Below, piece after piece: positions 7,103 through 20,525 of a stretch of 20,525 bases of DNA. Source of the DNA: a virus; the IMG/VR virus record IMGVR_UViG_3300021961_000791, positions 1-20,525 of that record, one strand, 5' to 3'. The position numbers were made by a program, and so were the translations under genes. Under the pieces are notes generated by a model. That model was not told where the DNA came from. It made no database searches and saw only the letters and a program-made list of their open reading frames with translations. Positions within the stretch are counted from its first letter, which is position 1. Each line of letters begins with the position of its first letter.

Positions 7103-8968
7103 TTAAGCATCCTCCTTTTCCATCACAGGTTTATAAATTGTAATTAGTTCTTCTTTACCTTTCACCTTAATTTTGTCAACTTCTATAGATTTAATATCTT
7201 TAAGTTGGTCCATTGTATAAGATGAATATAATGTAGTCACGACATTACCTTTTTTGTCTTTGTAATTTCGTGTTGCAGCCTCTAGTCTAGCAGCTAAGTT
7301 AACTGCGTCACCAATGACTGAATAGTCAAACCTCATATCACTACCCATATTACCTACGATACAAGTACCTGTGTTTACACCTGAACCTATGTTTATGTCT
7401 GGTAGTCCTTTATCTTTAAATTCTTTCTTTAATCTTGCCGTTTCTTTAGCACATTCTATACTTGTCTTAACAGCCATTTCCGCATGATTAGGACAGTCTA
7501 GGGGTGCGTTCCAGAAGGCCATTATGCAATCACCCATGTACTTGTCAATTGTACCACCGTTGTCTAATACTATCTTACTCATTCTATTTAAGTAATCATT
7601 TATAACTTGTACAAGTCCTTCGGGGTCATCATTATTTTTATAGTATTCGGAGATAGGTGTAAATCCTACAATGTCCATGAATAAGAAAGACATTTCTCTT
7701 CGTTCACCACCTAATTTTAATTTACTAGGGTCTTTTTGTAATATGGCAACTTGTCGAGGGTCAAGGTAAGATTCAAACTGTTTTCTAATTTGTTGTTTTA
7801 GTTTAAATTCTAAGATAAATCTATTAAATATACTATGCAATCCTACAAATAATATTGTTACTAAAATCCAAGTAACATCTACTAATTGATTTTTACCAAA
7901 GAAATAAATTGTACCATATACAGCCGCTGTTGAAAAGGCAACCATTATTCCACCAACCACATAATATGGTGTAAATCTTGTGAGTATTATTATAGCACTT
8001 CCTACTAAAAAGGCAACAACTAATTCTATAATAAATGATAAATCAGGTCTTTCAATATTGACACCATCTATAACAGTTTGTAAAGTTGAAGCAACTGCTA
8101 TGTAATCATAATTACTTCCATTAGGTGTAGCAATCACACCACCAAGTCCCTCTGCTTTCATTCCTATAATAACTGTTTTATTTGCGAGTCTAAATTCGTT
8201 TGTACCTAAATCTGCTATTGATATAGAAGGATATGCTTTGTTCCAAGTCAACCATATTCTTGCGTTTGCATCCGTTTTTATTGTTGCAAAACCTGGTACT
8301 CTCATGGCAATTATGCCTGCGTCACCTGATTTAACTTGATAACTAGGGTCACCTGTAGCAGTTCTAATTACTTCGATTGCAATATTAGGATAAACATCAT
8401 TACCTATTTTCATAAGTAAAGGCATTCTTCTTACAACACCGTCTATTTCAGGAGATACATTTGTTGTACCTACACCAGCTGCATTATCTCCTATTTCAGG
8501 TATAGGACCTACCATGCCTGGCCATTCAAATAACCACTCTAAGGGATTACCTATCTTTGCAACACCTCTAGGGTAACCGTTTTGTTGTGTTTGATGTGAA
8601 CCTGTTTGTGCAATTACTACAAAATTGTCATTTAAAACTTGGCCAAAATATTCATCTCCACCTAATCTATCTGGTTCTGAAAATAAAATAGGTAATACAA
8701 TTACACCAGCACCTTGTTTTCTTAATTCTAATATTACATCAGCAAGCACATCTCTTTTCCATGGCCATTGACCATATTTTTCAATAGCCTTTTCATCTAT
8801 TGTAACAATAGCAATGTCTTGTGATATTTCTGGATTTTGATTTTGAAAATGTAAGTCAAAAGATTTCAACCTCAATATCTCTTTGATTTGAGGGTCTTGT
8901 AAACCTACCCATGTGAGAGCAAATAATGTAACAAAGGCAAATGCCCAATGAGTAAAAATCTTTTTCAT
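7103..8968 (-). CDS. CHASE2-domain membrane adenylate cyclase (class III)
   Basis: This 621-residue protein has the standard order of a CHASE2 cyclase. There is a signal-anchor helix at about 8-22, a periplasmic CHASE2 sensor (about 28-305, with AIVTIDEKAIEKYGQWPW at 53-70), three membrane helices (about 312-330, 335-357, 364-382), then a class III cyclase domain (about 424-600). Catalytic residues are present: metal-binding D432 (FMDIVGFT) and D480 (YMGD), purine-recognising K476 with S550 (FDYSVIGD), ribose-positioning N557 and transition-state R561 (VNLAARLE). Serine at 550 is a substitution for the more usual Thr/Asp and is seen in bacterial cyclases. It should make cAMP in the cytoplasm in response to a periplasmic cue. 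It closes the curli-like block. Such an enzyme is very unusual in a phage. Confidence 0.95.
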   Translation of the reverse strand: MKKIFTHWAFAFVTLFALTWVGLQDPQIKEILRLKSFDLHFQNQNPEISQDIAIVTIDEKAIEKYGQWPWKRDVLADVILELRKQGAGVIVLPILFSEPDRLGGDEYFGQVLNDNFVVIAQTGSHQTQQNGYPRGVAKIGNPLEWLFEWPGMVGPIPEIGDNAAGVGTTNVSPEIDGVVRRMPLLMKIGNDVYPNIAIEVIRTATGDPSYQVKSGDAGIIAMRVPGFATIKTDANARIWLTWNKAYPSISIADLGTNEFRLANKTVIIGMKAEGLGGVIATPNGSNYDYIAVASTLQTVIDGVNIERPDLSFIIELVVAFLVGSAIIILTRFTPYYVVGGIMVAFSTAAVYGTIYFFGKNQLVDVTWILVTILFVGLHSIFNRFILEFKLKQQIRKQFESYLDPRQVAILQKDPSKLKLGGERREMSFLFMDIVGFTPISEYYKNNDDPEGLVQVINDYLNRMSKIVLDNGGTIDKYMGDCIMAFWNAPLDCPNHAEMAVKTSIECAKETARLKKEFKDKGLPDINIGSGVNTGTCIVGNMGSDMRFDYSVIGDAVNLAARLEAATRNYKDKKGNVVTTLYSSYTMDQLKDIKSIEVDKIKVKGKEELITIYKPVMEKEDA

Positions 8969-8980
8969 ATTAATATATAT

Positions 8981-9166
8981 CTATCCTTTAATACCCCTTG
9001 GCACTTTACTCCAAAATTCTTTTGGTGTAGTAAATTCCTGGTCCCATTGTTGATTAATAACTCTATATTCCCAAGCAATGTGTGTTACCCATACGACACA
9101 TCCCACGATAATTAGTCCACATAATAAAAAATAAAGTTTTTCTTTTAGGCTATAAAGTTCATACAT
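8981..9166 (-). CDS. Small single-pass membrane protein (61 aa)
   Basis: The best start is ATG at 9166, because AGGAGAG stands 5 bases before it. The frame stays open further upstream to 9211, but that start lies inside the previous gene and lacks a site. The 61-residue product has a short N-terminal region, one membrane helix (about 11-29, LYFLLCGLIIVGCVVWVTH) and an acidic/aromatic tail ending in KVPRGIKG. No family is recognised. It sits between the PA14-curlin gene (17 bases away) and the CHASE2 cyclase (12 bases away) and is therefore co-transcribed. A role as a connector or small regulator of the membrane cyclase is possible but unproven. Confidence 0.7.
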   Translation of the reverse strand: MYELYSLKEKLYFLLCGLIIVGCVVWVTHIAWEYRVINQQWDQEFTTPKEFWSKVPRGIKG

Positions 9167-9183
9167 TGTTTCTCTCCTGTATG

Positions 9184-10461
9184 TTAATTCTGTGTCACAG
9201 TTGCTGAGCAACTTGCCTGTGTACAGTTTTGATATAGATAATAGTTTTGTGAGGTACTACTATCTTGCGTCAATGTTACACTAGAAGTATTACCACTTAA
9301 ATTAATTGTTGCATTATGGTCACCACTTCCGTCTTGTGTTACATCTACATTATGACTATCAGTCAAGGTTATTTCTGCATAATGATTACCTGTACCTTTT
9401 TGGTCTACTGCGACATTATTTGAACCGTCTATGTCTAAAAATAGTTTCTTATTACCTGTTTCTGTCTGGTCTACATCAACATTATTACTATTGCCTGCTA
9501 TAATGACCGACATATAATGCTCACCAACATAATTGATTGCTGATTGGTCTAAATCTACATTGTTTGATGAACCTGTTATATCTAACTTTGCCCTTTGGTC
9601 TTGGTTTTGTGTGACTGCCACATTGTTTGATGAACCAACAATATCTAAACCTAAAACATTATCATTACCAAGTTGGTCTATATCTAAAGCATTGTTATCA
9701 CCAGTTATTACAGCTGATGATGTTAAGTCTGTGCCTATGATTAAGTTATCATCACCGTCTTGTAGAATATTTAAAGTATTGCCATCACCTGTTTGTGTAA
9801 CATAAATTTGGTTACCATTTACAGATTTATTTCTAAATGTATTAAATTCTGTTGTTTGAGTTGAAGTTATACCGGCAGTAGGTGTGGGTTCTGTGGTTGA
9901 ATATGCTGAGCTTGGTACCAAGGCTACTGAACCAGATTGGTCCCAATACAACGCAAAAGCGGCACCGCCACCATTCTCATACCACCAAGCGTCTATGTAA
10001 TATGTTTGTCCACCTGTGAGTGTTTGGTCTGTTGAAACATAATTCCAAGTACCAGCAGCTTGTTCTTGCCAGTCGTTGATAACAACTGTGTTGTCTATCT
10101 TCATGTAAACGCCGTCATCAGCATACAGATAGAATTGTATGTCCTGTGAACCTGTGTCTGGTATGGTGATGTAGCCATAGAAGTTAACGATTACTTGTTC
10201 ATTCCTTCCTGAATCTAATACATAACCACTACCCCAATTGTAATTCAAACTGGTCACCGTGCCTGTACTTAATACTGTGCCGTAATACAAACTACCACCG
10301 TTGCCTGGGAAACTTGGATAAGAACCAGTTCCTTGGTAAGTTTTGTAGTTCAAATCCGCCATTGCTTTAGTACATAAGGTTAAAAAACATAAAAATACAC
10401 CAAACCATAAAACAATCATCAGCCAATTTTCTTTATTGGTTTTGTTGTATATAGATTTCAT
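9184..10461 (-). CDS. Secreted PA14-domain protein with C-terminal curlin-type repeats
   Basis: I place the start at 10461, after GAGGGAAG, giving 425 residues; an upstream ATG at 10515 has no such site. A signal peptide runs to about residue 35 (KAMA before DLNYK). A PA14/GLEYA-like beta-barrel domain covers about 70-188, with DDGVYMKIDNTVVINDW around 115-131, the DDG loop typical of calcium- and sugar-binding members. From about 215 to the end there are roughly ten units ending in Q (Q223, 234, 263, 285, 306, 332, 354, 376, 399, 424), mostly of the form NNVxVxQ spaced 21-26 residues. This is the rung pattern of curlin repeats. It would be exported through CsgG and polymerise or adhere at the cell surface. 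Overlap with the FecR gene is 29 bases. Confidence 0.85.
   Translation of the reverse strand: MKSIYNKTNKENWLMIVLWFGVFLCFLTLCTKAMADLNYKTYQGTGSYPSFPGNGGSLYYGTVLSTGTVTSLNYNWGSGYVLDSGRNEQVIVNFYGYITIPDTGSQDIQFYLYADDGVYMKIDNTVVINDWQEQAAGTWNYVSTDQTLTGGQTYYIDAWWYENGGGAAFALYWDQSGSVALVPSSAYSTTEPTPTAGITSTQTTEFNTFRNKSVNGNQIYVTQTGDGNTLNILQDGDDNLIIGTDLTSSAVITGDNNALDIDQLGNDNVLGLDIVGSSNNVAVTQNQDQRAKLDITGSSNNVDLDQSAINYVGEHYMSVIIAGNSNNVDVDQTETGNKKLFLDIDGSNNVAVDQKGTGNHYAEITLTDSHNVDVTQDGSGDHNATINLSGNTSSVTLTQDSSTSQNYYLYQNCTQASCSATVTQN
9557..9636 (-). repeat. Direct DNA repeat inside the curlin-repeat region
   Basis: The 17-base string acattgtttgatgaacc occurs at 9557-9573 and again at 9620-9636, 63 bases apart, which is exactly 21 codons or one repeat unit. 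A shorter relative (tttgatgaacc) lies in the other curlin-repeat gene near 11918-11928. This points to recent unit duplication and possible length variation by recombination. Confidence 0.8.
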
Positions 10462-11548
10462 TACTTCCCTCGCCGAGAGTATAATCTCTGATTTCAGTAT
10501 CTTGTTGTACCACATTTATATTGTACCCTTGTTCTTGGTCTAATCTTAAAACTATATTGTTACCTGCTTCATCTGTTCTCATCCAAACCCATTCAGGTGC
10601 TTCGTCTAATAATATAACTCCAAATTCATCTTTTCCTGTTTTTCTTGTGTCTTTAGCTTTATCAAACTCACTTCTCATTTGTAATGCAAGTTGTTTATTT
10701 AATTGTTCTAATATATCCACTAAAAAATTTTGTTCTAAAAAATCAATATCAAGTGCTGTAGCATATTCATCTTCTTTAGTTTCTAATAAATCAACTTCTA
10801 AATCATCAAATTTTAAAAAATCAATATCTAAAGCATTAGCAACAATTTTTAAATTTTTTTCATACTGTATTTGGTCTTCTAGTTCAGGTGGTCTTCTTAC
10901 TATTAACAAGTTGTTAATAAGTGATTCATCTAAATCTAAAATTACAGGATTGATAGGTCTACTTTCAGGCGTATCTACTTGTGTAGCTTGAAATGCCTGA
11001 TTTAATATTACCTGACCTGCGTCACTTTCTACAGATATTTCACCGACAAAACAATTACCATTTGTATCACAACTTGGTAATAATATAATTGTAGATGACC
11101 CTATCTCATCTATAGTCATTGCAAAGTCCGTACCTCTAACTGATACTGTAGCAGTCGGAGTTTTTATACTAATATTTTGTGCCGAGTTTTTTGCAATTTG
11201 ACCACTAGCATATCTAACTGTACCTAAAGCTGCCTTTAAAGACAACTTTCCAGTTTTTTGATTAGGGTCAAATACAAACTCATCTATAATTAATTTAGAG
11301 TGTGATGTTACATCTACTCTAGTTTCATCTAAAAATTCAATAGCAACTTTACCTTTACCGGTCTTGACGGTATCATAGGTAAAGACATCTAAATCTTTTT
11401 CTACTATGATACCTTTGTTGCCATCTTTTCGGTCAATTACAGATTTACCTTCACTTAAACTTACATTACCAATAGTCGCTAAACTATTTGTTGGTAAAGT
11501 TGTAAGGGTTAAGAGTATGCACCCAATTATAAAATTTGTAAACCACAT
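10433..11548 (-). CDS. Periplasmic FecR-domain protein with curlin-like tail
   Basis: This 371-residue exported protein has a signal peptide ending near NSLA (residue 24). A FecR domain follows at about 55-150, recognisable by FLDETRVDVTSHSKLIIDEF and SIKTPTATVSVRGTDF. A middle region has two copies of ALDIDFL (239 and 265) in an acidic setting and is probably helical. The last 40 residues turn into curlin-like strands (NNIVLRLDQEQ, GYNINVVQQD, GSNEIYIQQNQ). FecR domains in some systems relay signals through the periplasm; others act as surface or assembly proteins. There is no transmembrane anti-sigma partner here. Lying beside a CHASE2 cyclase, it could sense or control fibre assembly. It starts with AGGA ahead of ATG after a 44-base gap. 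Confidence 0.85.
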   Translation of the reverse strand: MWFTNFIIGCILLTLTTLPTNSLATIGNVSLSEGKSVIDRKDGNKGIIVEKDLDVFTYDTVKTGKGKVAIEFLDETRVDVTSHSKLIIDEFVFDPNQKTGKLSLKAALGTVRYASGQIAKNSAQNISIKTPTATVSVRGTDFAMTIDEIGSSTIILLPSCDTNGNCFVGEISVESDAGQVILNQAFQATQVDTPESRPINPVILDLDESLINNLLIVRRPPELEDQIQYEKNLKIVANALDIDFLKFDDLEVDLLETKEDEYATALDIDFLEQNFLVDILEQLNKQLALQMRSEFDKAKDTRKTGKDEFGVILLDEAPEWVWMRTDEAGNNIVLRLDQEQGYNINVVQQDTEIRDYTLGEGSNEIYIQQNQ

Positions 11549-11592
11549 ATATTATTAATCCTGTATATAGTAAAAGTGTTATATTTTCCATG

Positions 11593-12282
11593 TTAATCCG
11601 TTTGTGATATATCAATGTCAGCGTTGTCACCACTTGTAGTTAATGAAATGTAGTTATCATTAACACCTGATTGTGTAATATCTACATCTCCAATACCACC
11701 TGTGTGTGAGTGAATTAATGTATGACCATTAACATCACCGTCACCGTCTATATCAATTAAGTAATTGTTAGTATCACCGTTTACTGTTAAAGTTAAAACG
11801 GCACTTGTACCATCAACTGTTGCAGCTATAATATTTGAATCTGAACCAGATTGTCCTGTTATAGTTACAGTTGAGTTTGAAGCGTCACTTGTTTCACCAA
11901 TATCTAAATCAATGTCATTTGATGAACCGGCCATAGTAATAGAAGCAGTTACAGTTCCACATGAGCTGTTTGATCCTCCACTATCACAATTTAAATCGAC
12001 ATCATTTGAGTCACCTGTTAAACTTATGGTACCTGTGTATGTTGCACCATTTACCTGATATGTAATGACATTTGAGTTACCTACTTGGTCAATATCTAAC
12101 ACAGTTGTTGCACCTGTTGAAGCAGATGATGTTTGAGCATTACCTACTGTGTTATTTTGGCCATCTTGTGTTATATCTAAATCTAAGTTAGCACCAGATT
12201 GTGTCACATAAATGTCATTCGCAAACGATGGACCAGCCATTACAAACATAACAAACATAATATAGCTTATTATCCTTTTCAT
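11593..12282 (-). CDS. Secreted curlin-repeat protein (putative amyloid subunit)
   Basis: This 229-residue protein has a clear signal peptide (MKRIISYIMFVMFVMAGPSFA, cut before NDIYVTQSG). The mature part is made of beta-strand repeats rich in N, D, S, T, G and Q. Good curlin-type units occur at both ends (IYVTQSGAN, LDITQDGQNN, LDIDQVGNSN, VDITQSGVNDN, IDISQTD), with more degenerate units in the middle where Q is often lost. There are two cysteines (C99, C108). It lacks any other domain and is the best candidate for the main fibre subunit exported by CsgG/CsgF, like CsgA, though sequence identity with enteric CsgA is probably low. It follows csgG by 17 bases, with AAGGGA as the ribosome site. 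Confidence 0.85.
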   Translation of the reverse strand: MKRIISYIMFVMFVMAGPSFANDIYVTQSGANLDLDITQDGQNNTVGNAQTSSASTGATTVLDIDQVGNSNVITYQVNGATYTGTISLTGDSNDVDLNCDSGGSNSSCGTVTASITMAGSSNDIDLDIGETSDASNSTVTITGQSGSDSNIIAATVDGTSAVLTLTVNGDTNNYLIDIDGDGDVNGHTLIHSHTGGIGDVDITQSGVNDNYISLTTSGDNADIDISQTD

Positions 12283-12299
12283 AGCTTATTTGTCCCTTC

Positions 12300-13136
12300 T
12301 TATTTTCTATCCTCATGGATAGTTTTTATTTTTTCTTTTTTAAACTTCCAAAAACCTTGTTTTTCGCCAGCGTAAATCATGTCTAAAACTGCAAACTCGA
12401 TAGCAGTCCGTATTGCATAATTCACAGGTTCGTTTACAGCCACACCTGTTTCTAATTCTAAGGCCTTTGTGCCCATGTCTAAAAATCTGAACACATCTCC
12501 ACCACTACTGTGACTTGCAATGGTCTTAGTCACATTAGTGGATAGTAAAATTTCTCCTGATTGTACTGACACAATTCTCATTGATACAGTAACTTGGTCT
12601 ACTCTATATTGTTCATTTAAGCCTATGCCAAAATATCTAGCACCTGCACCTCCTGATTGTATATTACTATCGTAACCTACAATACCACCCTCAATAAGTA
12701 AACCTGCAAACAATAATGGTTTTAATACATTTTGTATTACTTGTTCGCCATCATATAAATCTCTCGTACTTCTAATCAATTGTCTCTCTTTGACAAGATT
12801 ATCTAATCCATTTCTTTCAACAACTTGAAACCAGTCACCATCCGATACTGCTCTCAAAGCAGATATAACAAATGCGTCACTCCCTTGTGTGACAGCTGTT
12901 GATAACTGAGAAAACTTTGTACTAGGTTTTCTCTGTCCTGTTTGGTCGGTAAATTTATATACTGCAATAGTAATCTTTGGTTGACCATCCAAATCAGGAA
13001 TTGATTTCAGTTGTTCTAGTGTAGGCGTACCCTCAACATATGGCATACTGCCTTGAAATGTTTTAACATCCTTTGCCGTGTTGGCGCAACCTGTCACTAT
13101 CAATCCCACTAAGACCACCTGCAAAAATTTTAGCAT
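12300..13136 (-). CDS. csgG: Curli secretion channel, outer-membrane lipoprotein CsgG
   Basis: This 278-residue protein is almost the same length as E. coli CsgG (277). A lipoprotein signal ends in VTGC with the lipidated cysteine C17 and Ala at +2, fitting outer-membrane sorting. Strongly conserved stretches are VERNGLDNLVKER (107-119), IEGGIVGYDSNIQSGGAGARYFGIG (148-172), VSVQSGEILLSTNVTKTI (189-206) and VFRFLD (215-220). CsgG forms the nonameric pore that exports curlin subunits. In the constriction loop the E. coli residues Y51, N55 and F56 align with T73, Q77 and L78 here, by anchoring on STAV, so the gate differs. The start overlaps the preceding membrane gene's stop (TAATG). Confidence 0.97.
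   Translation of the reverse strand: MLKFLQVVLVGLIVTGCANTAKDVKTFQGSMPYVEGTPTLEQLKSIPDLDGQPKITIAVYKFTDQTGQRKPSTKFSQLSTAVTQGSDAFVISALRAVSDGDWFQVVERNGLDNLVKERQLIRSTRDLYDGEQVIQNVLKPLLFAGLLIEGGIVGYDSNIQSGGAGARYFGIGLNEQYRVDQVTVSMRIVSVQSGEILLSTNVTKTIASHSSGGDVFRFLDMGTKALELETGVAVNEPVNYAIRTAIEFAVLDMIYAGEKQGFWKFKKEKIKTIHEDRK
12307..12322 (-). other. Stem-loop at the csgG/curlin gene junction
   Basis: A perfect 6-base stem (CTATCC / GGATAG) with a 4-base loop covers the last codons of csgG, 25 bases before the curlin-repeat gene's ATG. On the minus-strand RNA it could act as a processing or stability hairpin that raises the level of the fibre-subunit message relative to csgG. On the plus strand it is followed by a T-rich run and looks like a terminator, but no plus-strand gene is known here. 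Confidence 0.4.
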
Positions 13137-15919: not shown

Positions 15920-16384
15920 TTAGTCCTTACTTTTTTTATTTTGATTTATATATTGTTGATAGACTCTATGAGCTGCAGCTAGGTCTTTTTTCTTTTCTGG
16001 ATCCTTTGCTCTTTCACTTGCAACTTTGGCTCTTTGTGACATTGCAATGGCAGCCTGCATTTTATGAGCATGTGTTTTACCAGAACCTTTTATTTTATTT
16101 ATAGATTGTTTGGCCTTAGCGGCATCTGTAAAACCTAGACCGTGAATAGTACCTTTTGGATTTTCATCTGTATATAAATCTGAATGTTTATCTGAACCTG
16201 CTTTTTGACCAGGTTTTCTTGCAATTCTAGGATTTTTTTGTGCGTGTACCAGGCCTACAGCTCTATCATGCCTACTACCTTTTCCTTTAGGTGGTCTATC
16301 ACCTAAACTAGCAATAGGGTGTACACTATCTAAGCCACCAATTCTTACGCCTGTGACACCTGTATATTCTTTAAATGTCTTCAC
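15920..16384 (-). CDS. Basic conserved phage protein with MKTFKEYT leader
   Basis: I place the start at GTG 16384 (AAGGA 7 bases upstream), one codon inside a TTG-started reading. This makes the protein begin MKTFKEYTGV, matching two nearby genes. The 154-residue product is basic and rich in G, K, A and H. A distinctive stretch, KGTIHGLGFTDAAKAKQSI (about 77-95), is followed by KGSGKTHAHKMQAAIAMSQRA (about 99-119) and a charged helical tail. I do not recognise a named family. A positively charged protein with this leader could be an internal capsid protein. It overlaps the previous gene by 14 bases. Confidence 0.75.
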   Translation of the reverse strand: MKTFKEYTGVTGVRIGGLDSVHPIASLGDRPPKGKGSRHDRAVGLVHAQKNPRIARKPGQKAGSDKHSDLYTDENPKGTIHGLGFTDAAKAKQSINKIKGSGKTHAHKMQAAIAMSQRAKVASERAKDPEKKKDLAAAHRVYQQYINQNKKSKD

Positions 16385-16751
16385 CAAACTGTCCTTCGTG
16401 AGGAGTATTGTCTGCTAAGTCTTTAATAAATTTATCGTGAAAGGTTTTTTTCTCTTTTACTATTTTGATTTCTTCTTTGACAATACCACTTTTCTCATCA
16501 ATCTTATCTTCAAGTTTATTTAAAGTTTCATTGATACCTCTTAAAACAACATTATTGTTATCGGTATTTTCTTTAACAGATTGCCCCATTTTTTTCATAA
16601 TCATTCTTCTTAATACATCTTCGGCGTCATCTTTTTTCTTTTTACCTGTTGGATTCATATCAACACCACCATGAGCAACAGCATTTGCCGGTGCGTCTTC
16701 ATCCATTTTGTTAATGATTTCATCAATCATTTCTTTATAATGTTTTGGCAT
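16371..16751 (-). CDS. Small helical phage protein (126 aa)
   Basis: The start is ATG 16751, because GGAGG stands 6 bases before it; a longer reading to 16802 lacks a site. The protein begins MPKHYKEMIDEIINKMDED, then has a low-complexity A/N/G stretch with GGVDMNPTGKKKKDD (about 28-42), and two charged helices likely to form coiled coil (about 66-110, NETLNKLEDKIDEKSGIVKEE). It is acidic to neutral, with no signal or membrane segment. It is unrecognised but has the look of a small scaffold or head-assembly protein. It overlaps the upstream gene by 17 bases and the downstream one by 14. Confidence 0.7.
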   Translation of the reverse strand: MPKHYKEMIDEIINKMDEDAPANAVAHGGVDMNPTGKKKKDDAEDVLRRMIMKKMGQSVKENTDNNNVVLRGINETLNKLEDKIDEKSGIVKEEIKIVKEKKTFHDKFIKDLADNTPHEGQFGEDI

Positions 16752-17208
16752 AATTGTCCTCCGATACCAGTTCGCCATTCTTTTCATATACACCCATACC
16801 AAAGCATGTCATGTATGGTTCTTCTTCAATTTCTGGCATTTCTCTAACTTCATTTAACAACATGTTATATAAATTTTCTTCTTTTAAATATGTTATTAAT
16901 GCTGATTCAATTGCGTCTTTGTGTTCAGCATATGATTTATCTTCTTTAATTAGTAAAGCTAAAGCAACGGCAAATGAACCTAATCTACTACCTAATCCTA
17001 CTTTCTGTAGTATTCTTTTTAAATTGAATACAAATCTGTGTAGCATAGTATAGTGTTTACGGTCACTACCTTTTACTTCTTTCATTTTCTTTAATGACTT
17101 ACCTTTTTCATCAATAATACCTAAATCATAAGCCTTAAACTTATTAAAAGGTGTTACTAACATCTTTACCACTCGGTAAGTAATAATTAAATCAATTGCT
17201 CTACTCAT
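16735..17208 (-). CDS. Conserved phage protein of unknown function (157 aa)
   Basis: A 157-residue soluble protein beginning MSRAIDLIITYRVVKMLVTPF, with a middle segment HRFVFNLKRILQKVGLGSRLGSFAVALALLIKED (about 57-90) and an acidic C-terminus. I recall this N-terminus and the RFVFNLKR segment from conserved structural-region proteins of marine T4-like phages, but cannot name a role. It shares an ATGA overlap with the gene before it and overlaps the next gene by 17 bases, so it is translated in a tight chain. Confidence 0.75.
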   Translation of the reverse strand: MSRAIDLIITYRVVKMLVTPFNKFKAYDLGIIDEKGKSLKKMKEVKGSDRKHYTMLHRFVFNLKRILQKVGLGSRLGSFAVALALLIKEDKSYAEHKDAIESALITYLKEENLYNMLLNEVREMPEIEEEPYMTCFGMGVYEKNGELVSEDNYAKTL

Positions 17209-17567
17209 AGTTCTTTTAACATTTCCTCTATGTTCTTATCTGTTTTCACATTATCCAATTCGTGTGGATATAGGTACTCCAGATAGTTCAAACATGTTTT
17301 TAATACTGACCAATATTTCTTATCAATCTTATATAACAATAATGTTATTGCCACTTCAGCACCGAAAACATTTTGCAATACGATTAAGTGGTTTAAGATT
17401 AATCTTATCTTAATTTCACCTGTAATATCGTATTTACGAAATAACCTTTTAAGATATTTAAATCGCTTTATATCATCATAAAACTCTATCTCTGTTTCAA
17501 GAGTAGGGTTATCATAGTTTTGTTGTGCGAACAACAACCAATTATCTTTGGTTATTTCCTTGAACAT
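17205..17567 (-). CDS. Conserved phage protein of unknown function (120 aa)
   Basis: A 120-residue helical protein with no signal peptide. The recognisable part is DDIKRFKYLKRLFRKYDITGEIKIRLILNHLIVLQNVFG (about 31-69), a basic helix-turn-helix-like pair followed by hydrophobic helices. I recall this pattern from widespread T4-like phage proteins of unknown function. It has no clear Shine-Dalgarno before ATG and lies 7 bases after the previous gene, so it may depend on coupled translation. It ends in a 4-base ATGA overlap with the next gene. Confidence 0.75.
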   Translation of the reverse strand: MFKEITKDNWLLFAQQNYDNPTLETEIEFYDDIKRFKYLKRLFRKYDITGEIKIRLILNHLIVLQNVFGAEVAITLLLYKIDKKYWSVLKTCLNYLEYLYPHELDNVKTDKNIEEMLKEL

Positions 17568-17574
17568 AAAAAGT

Positions 17575-18018
17575 CTATACTAATTTAGCAAAGACTTTTG
17601 ACGAACCGTTTTCTAAGGTTTCGTACTTAACATTAAGTTTCAGACCACCCTCTTTTTTGTGAGATATGCCATCATCATTAATATCGGAACCGTCAATATC
17701 TTTACCAAATCTTCCGCCGAATTGTGTCACTTCAAGATTAGCAGAACCATTACCTGACATTTCAGGAATGACCATGTCCAAACCAATCGTTTTTAATTTA
17801 TTTGCAAGTTGTTCCATAGCAGCTTTCGGATTTAAATACTCCTGACCTGCGATAGAGCCTACAAATGCATTTACTCTCTCAAGGATTTTAGGGTCGTGAA
17901 TGTTATGAGCACCAATGTTACCATCTTCTACAGAGTTAACTTCTGGTGTACCAACATTACCGGCACCATACTTACCTTGTTTGTAGCCTTCTTTTACATG
18001 TTGTTTAAAAGTTTTCAT
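17575..18018 (-). CDS. Conserved virion-type protein with capsid-targeting-like leader
   Basis: A 147-residue protein beginning MKTFKQHVKEGYKQG. Aligned with the T4 internal-protein leader MKTYQEFIAEA, it keeps MKT at 1-3 and Glu at position 10, where the T4 prohead protease cuts. The body has LERVNAFVGSIAG (about 46-58), QLANKLKTIGL (70-80) and a conserved-looking TQFGGRFGKDIDGSDINDDG (98-117) before beta-rich GGLKLNVKYE. A structural role in or around the head is plausible but inferred. It has a good AGGAG site 5 bases before ATG. Confidence 0.75.
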   Translation of the reverse strand: MKTFKQHVKEGYKQGKYGAGNVGTPEVNSVEDGNIGAHNIHDPKILERVNAFVGSIAGQEYLNPKAAMEQLANKLKTIGLDMVIPEMSGNGSANLEVTQFGGRFGKDIDGSDINDDGISHKKEGGLKLNVKYETLENGSSKVFAKLV

Positions 18019-18026
18019 TTCTTCTC

Positions 18027-18233
18027 CTACTTATACTTGTCTGATTTTCGCTTCTCGCCATCACTTCTAGCAATCAGACCTTTTGCTTTTAAATGAGCCT
18101 TGTCTGTAAATCCAGCCTTACCTGCTTTATAACGCTTCATTGCGTCAGCAGTATTAGGTGGACTTTCAGCCATTAAGTCTTCTTCAAAGTCCTCTAAATC
18201 TTTATCTTTAATATATTGTTTTAGAGTTTTCAT
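18027..18233 (-). CDS. Small basic protein with MKTLKQYI leader
   Basis: A 68-residue protein beginning MKTLKQYIKDKDLEDFEEDL. The first 24 residues are amphipathic and acidic; the rest is basic (AMKRYKAGKAGFTDKAHLKAKGLIA and a KRKSDKYK end). This two-part structure, a targeting-like leader plus a basic DNA-friendly body, is what small phage internal head proteins look like. It shares an ATGA overlap with the coiled-coil gene before it and lies 8 bases ahead of the related-leader gene. Function inferred only. Confidence 0.7.
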   Translation of the reverse strand: MKTLKQYIKDKDLEDFEEDLMAESPPNTADAMKRYKAGKAGFTDKAHLKAKGLIARSDGEKRKSDKYK

Positions 18234-19945: not shown

Positions 19946-20525
19946 TTATTTGTTGTAATCTACTTTAGGTTTTGTATCAACTTTTGTAGGTTTTTCGCCT
20001 GTCATGGTAACTTTTCTGTTCATGTCTTTTTCATCATCTTTTTTAGTAGGCACCATAGTTTCCATGCCTTCGGTAATCACACGATTTTTAGCAGCTGTTT
20101 GCAAAATTGTCATTTGAGCTGACCTTTCATCATTAAAAGTATCTGATTGTGTGAAATCATCTTCATCATCAGAATTATCATGGTAAGCTACAAACTTACT
20201 TCCTTGTTTATGATAATAACCTATTTGTTTATTATTACCATATTTTGTTCTACCTCTATAAAAAACTTCTACATCTCCATTAGACGCTTTCTTAGTGTAC
20301 ATTTTAGCCATACTGGCCTTTTCATTAAGTTCAACTTCTTCATTTTTTGCTGTATATTTTTTATCAATCTTGTTAAAAAATGCTTTCTTTTCAGCAGGTG
20401 ACATTGAACCGATACCTTTGCCGGCTTTATCTAGTTCTTTTTTAAACATTGCTTGGTAACCTGAATCTTCTCTGTAACTACCTTGTTTAGCTACAAGTTC
20501 TTCAATACTACCTGGTTTGTGTTTT
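19946..20525 (-). CDS. Conserved phage protein, N-terminus beyond window
   Basis: The frame is open through the right edge, so the true start lies beyond 20525; the ATG at 20449 is internal. The 192 visible full codons include KPGSIEELVAKQGSYRED before YQAMFKKELDKAGKGIGSMSPAEKKAFFNKID, a compact helical motif I recall from T4-like marine phages. A region SNGDVEVFYRGRTKYGNNKQIGYY follows, then an acidic stretch (DNSDDEDDFTQSD) and a lysine-rich end. A scaffold or virion role is possible. There is no signal peptide or membrane segment in the visible part. Confidence 0.8.
   Translation of the reverse strand, partial: KHKPGSIEELVAKQGSYREDSGYQAMFKKELDKAGKGIGSMSPAEKKAFFNKIDKKYTAKNEEVELNEKASMAKMYTKKASNGDVEVFYRGRTKYGNNKQIGYYHKQGSKFVAYHDNSDDEDDFTQSDTFNDERSAQMTILQTAAKNRVITEGMETMVPTKKDDEKDMNRKVTMTGEKPTKVDTKPKVDYNK

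Follow-up and report, generated by a model that had tools for sequence, protein, structure and literature searches.

T4-type capsid-targeting leaders predicted on unrelated proteins of a pelagimyophage and its marine relatives

Leader-bearing genes in a pelagimyophage fragment

The window, that is, the whole 20,525-nucleotide stretch of DNA analysed here (IMG/VR record IMGVR_UViG_3300021961_000791), is itself a fragment, coextensive with the entire record, and contains neither gp21 nor gp22. HTVC008M, a Pelagibacter phage and T4-like member of the Kyanoviridae, emerged as its neighbour in both DNA and protein searches, and its gene content comprises nrdA, nrdB, a T4-type primase and a curli cluster of the kind described for pelagimyophages (PMC7029224). 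The curli-type cluster spans positions 7103-13136, includes genes of FecR-like, cyclase and CsgG-like type and matches the published pelagimyophage cluster. Judging from its sequence, the window is a fragment of an HTVC008M-like pelagimyophage. In HTVC008M and in Melnitz, the interval bounded by the genes for gp41 helicase and gp61 primase holds relatives of the three genes considered here, denoted A, B and S, and a corresponding block lies at the same gp41-gp61 place in S-SM1 and S-SCSM1.

Gene A (17575..18018, minus strand) encodes 147 amino acids with the N-terminus MKTFKQHVKE/G (here and below, the stroke marks a predicted cut), comprising the leader, a variable linker and an alpha/beta body (VNAFVGSIA ... 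FGGRFGKDIDGSDINDDGISHK). Its leader, residues 1-10 (17989..18018, minus strand), carries F4, H7, V8 and E10 and is a predicted capsid-targeting propeptide that would be cut after E10. Gene S (18027..18233, minus strand; 68 amino acids, MKTLKQYIKDKDLEDFEEDLMAE/SPPNTADAMKRYKAGKAGFTDKAHLKAKGL...) begins with MKTLKQYIKDK, and its leader, residues 1-23 (18165..18233, minus strand), combines L4, Y7, I8 and D10 with a later LMAE23 in front of the conserved body, leaving a predicted mature part of 45 amino acids with a pI of 10.1. Gene B (15920..16384, minus strand; 154 amino acids, MKTFKEYTGVTGV; MKTFKEYTGV...) starts with GTG, is basic (pI 10.2) and has a leader, residues 1-10 (16355..16384, minus strand), with the F4/Y7 targeting half only. 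A TTG one codon upstream provides an alternative start that would give MVKTFKEY, and close relatives have ATG at the position of MKTFKEY. The earlier note had described a leader common to three proteins with differing bodies, and this description is borne out: the frames were confirmed on the minus strand, and the bodies of A, B and S fall into separate clusters. Gene C (16371..16754, minus strand; 127 amino acids, MPKHYKEMIDEIINKMDE/DAPANAV...) is a possible fourth cargo gene, some relatives of which begin with MKTFKEV or MKSFKEL; glutamate precedes DAPANAV in 25/25 relatives and hydrophobic-x-E does so in 21/25, with an anchor pattern picked after the motif had been seen.

Searches of Pfam and PHROGs assigned no function to any of A, B and S, returning named families of unknown function or weak matches. 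The structure predicted for A includes a short helix (residues 5-9) and a linker (about 9-42) with pLDDT below 50; confidence is low overall, and the model, with a pLDDT of 51, is too poor to support a fold search. For B, a C-terminal three-helix bundle is predicted (helices within 88-149, block pLDDT of at least 80). The mature part of S and the entire B share a strongly basic character with T4 internal proteins, but A does not. A scan for the late-promoter sequence TATAAATA was uninformative, with 5 sites against 4.1 expected. A 167-amino-acid protein at 19946-20449 contains an internal EEVELNE/KASMAK, a possible prohead protease site deep inside the protein; the pattern used recovered no relatives of it.

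The T4 residue rule and its conservation in relatives

In T4, mutagenesis assigned targeting mainly to leader residues 4 and 7, and processing to residues 8 and 10 (Mullaney and Black 1996, via the review PMC9026906); aspartate at position 10 stops processing while still permitting targeting, and gp21 cuts after L/I-x-E (PMC9026906). In the T4 genome, ipII and ipIII both start with MKTYQEFIAEA, whereas ipI starts with MKTFKEF (MKTFKEFTSTTTPVSTITEA), and among 50 kb of T4 examined a leader pattern matches 4 starts, 3 of which are those of internal proteins. The alignment with MKTYQEFIAEA proposed in the earlier note is correct for IPII and IPIII, but IPI differs (MKTFKEFTSTTTPVSTITE/A) and matches better; given that ipI starts with MKTFKEF, it is the nearest T4 counterpart of B and A.

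All three proteins of the window carry residues of the targeting kind (B, F4/Y7; A, F4/H7; S, L4/Y7), although L4 and H7 depart from those of T4, F/Y and F, respectively. The processing residues are V8 and E10 in A; S has I8 but D10, and B has neither. Thus, an acidic residue does occupy the presumed cleavage position in two of the proteins, as the earlier note stated, but one of the two, D10, is the residue that blocks processing in T4. By the T4 rule, A would be expected to be targeted and cut; S to be targeted and left uncut at position 10, with a second site, LMAE23, following; and B to be targeted and left uncut. The sequences before the predicted cuts in the window are near-matches to the gp21 motif, V-K-E in A and M-A-E in S, with V and M rather than L/I three residues before the cut, whereas the motif in relatives mostly has I/L at the first position. 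The residue after the predicted cut is unlike that of T4, being G, D, H or V besides A.

Starts of the form MK[TS][FYL]K are rare, with 1 among 3198 start candidates preceded by a ribosome-binding site in related and reference genome stretches, a background that excludes the HTVC008M stretch holding its own leaders. The window has 3 among 92 candidates, compared to 0.029 expected (Poisson P ~4e-6). Across 157 loci, a comparison of 24 arrangements of these residue classes gave 129-130 distinct proteins for the arrangement observed and for its near-duplicate, and at most 10 for any other; the count is inflated because these loci were fetched using two of the very proteins in question. The leader is kept at the protein level while its codons change synonymously. 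Other MKN/MKT starts, namely those of NT5C-like enzymes and of signal-peptide-bearing curli proteins, were judged not to be leaders; among in-block NT5C-like genes beginning with MKNLPRIYCDMD, a junction was found in 0/65.

In relatives, the leaders are found on about eight families unrelated to one another. Family A includes 92 unique relatives, and 80 of the 89 leader-bearing ones have [ILVM]xE at positions 8-10; in 8 of the 9 exceptions the motif stands two residues further on (INIKE, NVNE), which brings the count, shifts included, to 88/89. Position 7 in this family is H in 66 members, Y in 14, M in 7 and F in 2, and the linker that follows the motif varies in both length and sequence. The orthologues in HTVC008M and Melnitz lie at 113582-113995 and 21306-21701, respectively; the former has its glutamate at position 12, and HTVC008M has no match to the strict T4 rule. 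In family S, about 40 of 41 distinct relatives have glutamate immediately before the conserved body, and about 38 of 41 have hydrophobic-x-E there. Family B has invariant E6 and Y7 in 25 relatives, and a scan for [ILVM]xE in residues 7-30 found it in only 3/50 sequences, two of which belong to another family.

A hydrophobic-x-E junction abuts the conserved body in five families, in 89-100% of members against a background of about 2% per position, and it is kept while the leader itself varies; the anchors of these junctions were picked by eye, and the counts therefore measure conservation and do not amount to a blind test. Besides family S, these are families encoded in the same gp41-gp61 block: the junction is present in 15/15 members of a P-loop kinase family, whose leaders range from MKTFAELQE to MKNFDDIRYQDLQE, in 14/14 members of a two-domain nucleotidyltransferase/cytidylyltransferase family, in 23/23 members of the family of a 115-amino-acid protein (E115) and in about 17/19 of that of a 103-amino-acid protein (T103). 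Furthermore, an S-family leader, MKTLKQHIKEK.LEDFEEDLTGEE, runs in frame into the leader of gene A in 11 fetched loci (L005, L006, L007, L013-L016, L019-L021 and L085), some of which come from identical or nearly identical phages; no S body was seen within these loci. This fusion, as read from the sequences, would be a naturally occurring case of tag mobility.

The B body also occurs without the leader, in homologues from HTVC033P, a pelagiphage that is not classed with T4-like phages, and from S-SM2. The homologue in the T4-like phage P-TIM68 (L254:1261-2382) lies two genes after the major capsid gene and starts with MMKSFIDFSENLE (MKSFIDF); it also contains an internal NMKNFTSFMEA. In HTVC008M, the S body (APNTADAMKRHKAGKAGFTDKAHLKAKGL) forms the C-terminus of a 170-amino-acid protein (106050-106562; L004:6050-6562), where it follows FKEFIMKYLEQ.

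A candidate protease for the junctions is encoded by relatives. The gp21 of HTVC008M matches Peptidase_S77 (PF03420, E 5.7e-33), gp21 is annotated in Melnitz, Mosig, S-SM1, S-CREM2 and S-SCSM1, and it is present in 3/16 relative contigs, including the two longest.

Leader-bearing proteins in cyanophage virions

Our search found no virion proteome for any pelagimyophage; the virion tests cover the leader proteins of cyanophages. For S-CREM2, 52 virion proteins have been listed (PMC10665884). The leader pattern applied to T4, here with I also allowed at position 7 and fixed before any S-CREM2 sequence had been read, matches six proteins, namely gp6 (SAM hydrolase), gp13, gp14 (kinase), gp136, gp154 (cytidylyltransferase) and gp51; 5/6 of these were detected in virions, compared to 47/213 of the other proteins (p=0.003), and the association persists when named structural genes are set aside (5/6 vs 21/187, p=0.0002). 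The predicted cuts in these proteins include MKDFDSFLEE/F in gp6, MKRFDAFLTE/E in gp14 and MKNFSSFLTE/A in gp154. The strict T4 rule, the residue classes of which were partly set after the pelagiphage families had been seen, selects 4 S-CREM2 proteins, 4/4 of them detected in virions. By contrast, a generic [ILVMF]xE[ASG] site near the N-terminus, scored over all S-CREM2 genes, does not predict virion presence (p=0.09). S-CREM2 gp12 (L170:7704-10313), a Cas9-like nuclease in the virion list, has RFASFMAE/A about 25 residues in, resembling a leader behind an extension.

For S-SCSM1, virion status was taken from the labels in the GenBank record, in which we counted 48 labelled proteins vs 45 in the paper. 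Here, 1/2 proteins selected by the strict rule were detected (the NMNAT gp91, with MKSFLQFLKEA and a predicted cut before the final A, but not gp30), which is not significant alone. The gp30 protein (L257:4215-4535), with the leader MKTFKQFMSES and no virion label, lies between two labelled virion proteins, and in gp84-gp98, the block of this phage that corresponds to the gp41-gp61 interval, 7/15 genes are labelled as encoding virion proteins. Pooling the two phages (501 annotated proteins) gives 5/6 vs 95/495 detected (stratified exact p=0.002; p=7e-5 without named structural genes), an association that is carried by S-CREM2, one of the two phages, and rests on small numbers. The cytidylyltransferase family has MK.F.AFL.EA in 29/29 unique cyanophage variants, all of them close relatives of one query, and the S-SM1 study reports this enzyme in virions (PMC3037559). 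The authors of the proteome reports allow that lists from CsCl-purified virions may contain carry-over.

Proposed head loading, alternatives and known systems

We consider it very likely, on the basis of sequence comparison, that the MKT(F/L)K leaders are capsid-targeting sequences of the T4 type that load cargo into the phage head. The suggestion of the earlier note that the leader is a reusable address tag gains support from the retention of the residues critical in T4, the many unrelated bodies behind the leader, the five conserved junctions, the cyanophage virion lists and the presence of gp21 in relatives. By analogy with T4, A, B and S probably travel within the virion and enter the host on infection; we infer their packaging, cleavage and injection, with delivery suggested by the T4 precedent and by the enzymatic nature of related cargo.

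In the proposed scheme, leader residues 4 and 7 would dock newly made proteins on a gp22-type scaffold core of the prohead, and the shell would close round this core, enclosing the tagged proteins. A gp21-type S77 protease would then cut after hydrophobic-x-E, that is, after E10 in A and after E23 in S, freeing the mature proteins in the head, while B, having no site, would keep its tag. The head would then hold, alongside the DNA, the small basic S, the basic B, the mixed alpha/beta A and possibly C, and these proteins would probably leave together with the DNA at ejection.

The leaders could instead dock scaffold-side proteins of the core that aid prohead assembly and are then largely destroyed or expelled, like gp67 and gp68 of T4, in which case no cargo would be delivered. 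The targeting logic would be identical, S and C are small, and the position of the P-TIM68 homologue close to the major capsid gene would fit; yet the leader-bearing enzymes (cytidylyltransferase, SAM lyase, kinases, nucleotidyltransferase) are implausible as scaffold, several of them are found in virions, and the bodies of A and S are conserved behind the predicted cut, which makes this account unlikely. Very improbable, in our view, is a common N-terminus that carries no address and has arisen by chance or through a preference in translation initiation (an AAA second codon and an A-rich start). Lysine-rich starts are indeed frequent in these AT-rich phages, and curli and NT5C-like proteins share MKT/MKN starts, but a single residue order is enriched, with an excess in the window far above expectation, and the synonymous codon variation, the conserved glutamate junctions, the lack of any junction in the in-block NT5C-like genes and the link between the T4 rule and detection in virions all argue against it. 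Finally, the leader might direct proteins to another phage structure, such as the tail or baseplate, or be a host-directed localisation signal, given that head and tail are not separated in the virion lists and that a leader-bearing kinase of Melnitz (65855) is encoded near baseplate genes. However, the likeness to T4 is to a head-core signal, the hydrophobic-x-E junctions suit a prohead protease and the leader lacks the hydrophobicity of a membrane signal, so that we give this possibility next to no credence.

Returning to head loading, we see about even chances that a single code is common to the marine T4-like phages that infect SAR11, methylotrophs and cyanobacteria, such that a leader of the form MK.F..F/Y/H followed by hydrophobic-x-E would place unrelated proteins (nucleotidyltransferases, P-loop kinases, SAM lyase, a Cas9-like nuclease) in the capsid for delivery at infection, and injected effectors would be readable from genome sequence. 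Most marine myovirus proteins are without a known role, and a leader rule measured in T4, and associated here with the cyanophage virion lists, could predict which of them enter the host, so that candidates for host takeover and counter-defence in some of the most abundant phages of the sea could be listed and tested. The rule also bears on two virion proteomics papers, in which the cytidylyltransferase, kinase and SAM hydrolase could be either cargo or carry-over.

Capsid-targeting sequences are known in T4 and have been inferred in T-even relatives (PMC9026906). The leaders described here resemble those of T4 IPI, IPII and IPIII in the MKTF/Y start, in the targeting residues 4 and 7 and, in A, in the hydrophobic residue 8 and E10, as well as in the use of one tag on diverse bodies, two of the three basic, and in the S77 prohead protease of relatives. 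They differ in belonging to marine Kyanoviridae, in being about 9-23 residues long, in a residue after the cut that is not mainly A, in the lack of a site in B and the combination of D10 with a later site in S, and, in relatives, in being attached to large enzymes and occurring in tandem in the 11 fetched loci. T4 Alt is likewise a head-packaged enzyme with a short N-terminal propeptide, 7 residues long and cut by gp21 (PMC9026906), whereas those tagged here include nucleotidyltransferases and P-loop kinases. Long propeptides on head proteins of the giant phage SPN3US were deduced to guide ejection proteins to the prohead, and a related prohead protease removes them (PMC5694885), but unlike the leaders of A, B and S, these are mostly more than 100 residues long and have another motif.

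Further counterparts are the NMNAT/cytidylyltransferase, SAM hydrolase and APH-like kinase of cyanophage virions, with leaders such as MKKFSAFLNEA, MKNFSSFLTEA and MKDFDSFLEE; their bodies are unlike those of A, B and S, and the cytidylyltransferase gene lies within the corresponding gp41-gp61 block of S-SM1 and S-SCSM1. The accessible parts of the reports on these enzymes treat their packaging as uncertain and do not mention a targeting leader (PMC3037559, PMC10665884, PMC9602691), and the open literature that we searched, including the pelagimyophage and Melnitz papers, contains no mention of such a leader in marine Kyanoviridae. The MKT(F/L)K leaders, seemingly undescribed in these very abundant marine phages, would be a further instance of a mechanism already known, serving a broader range of cargo.
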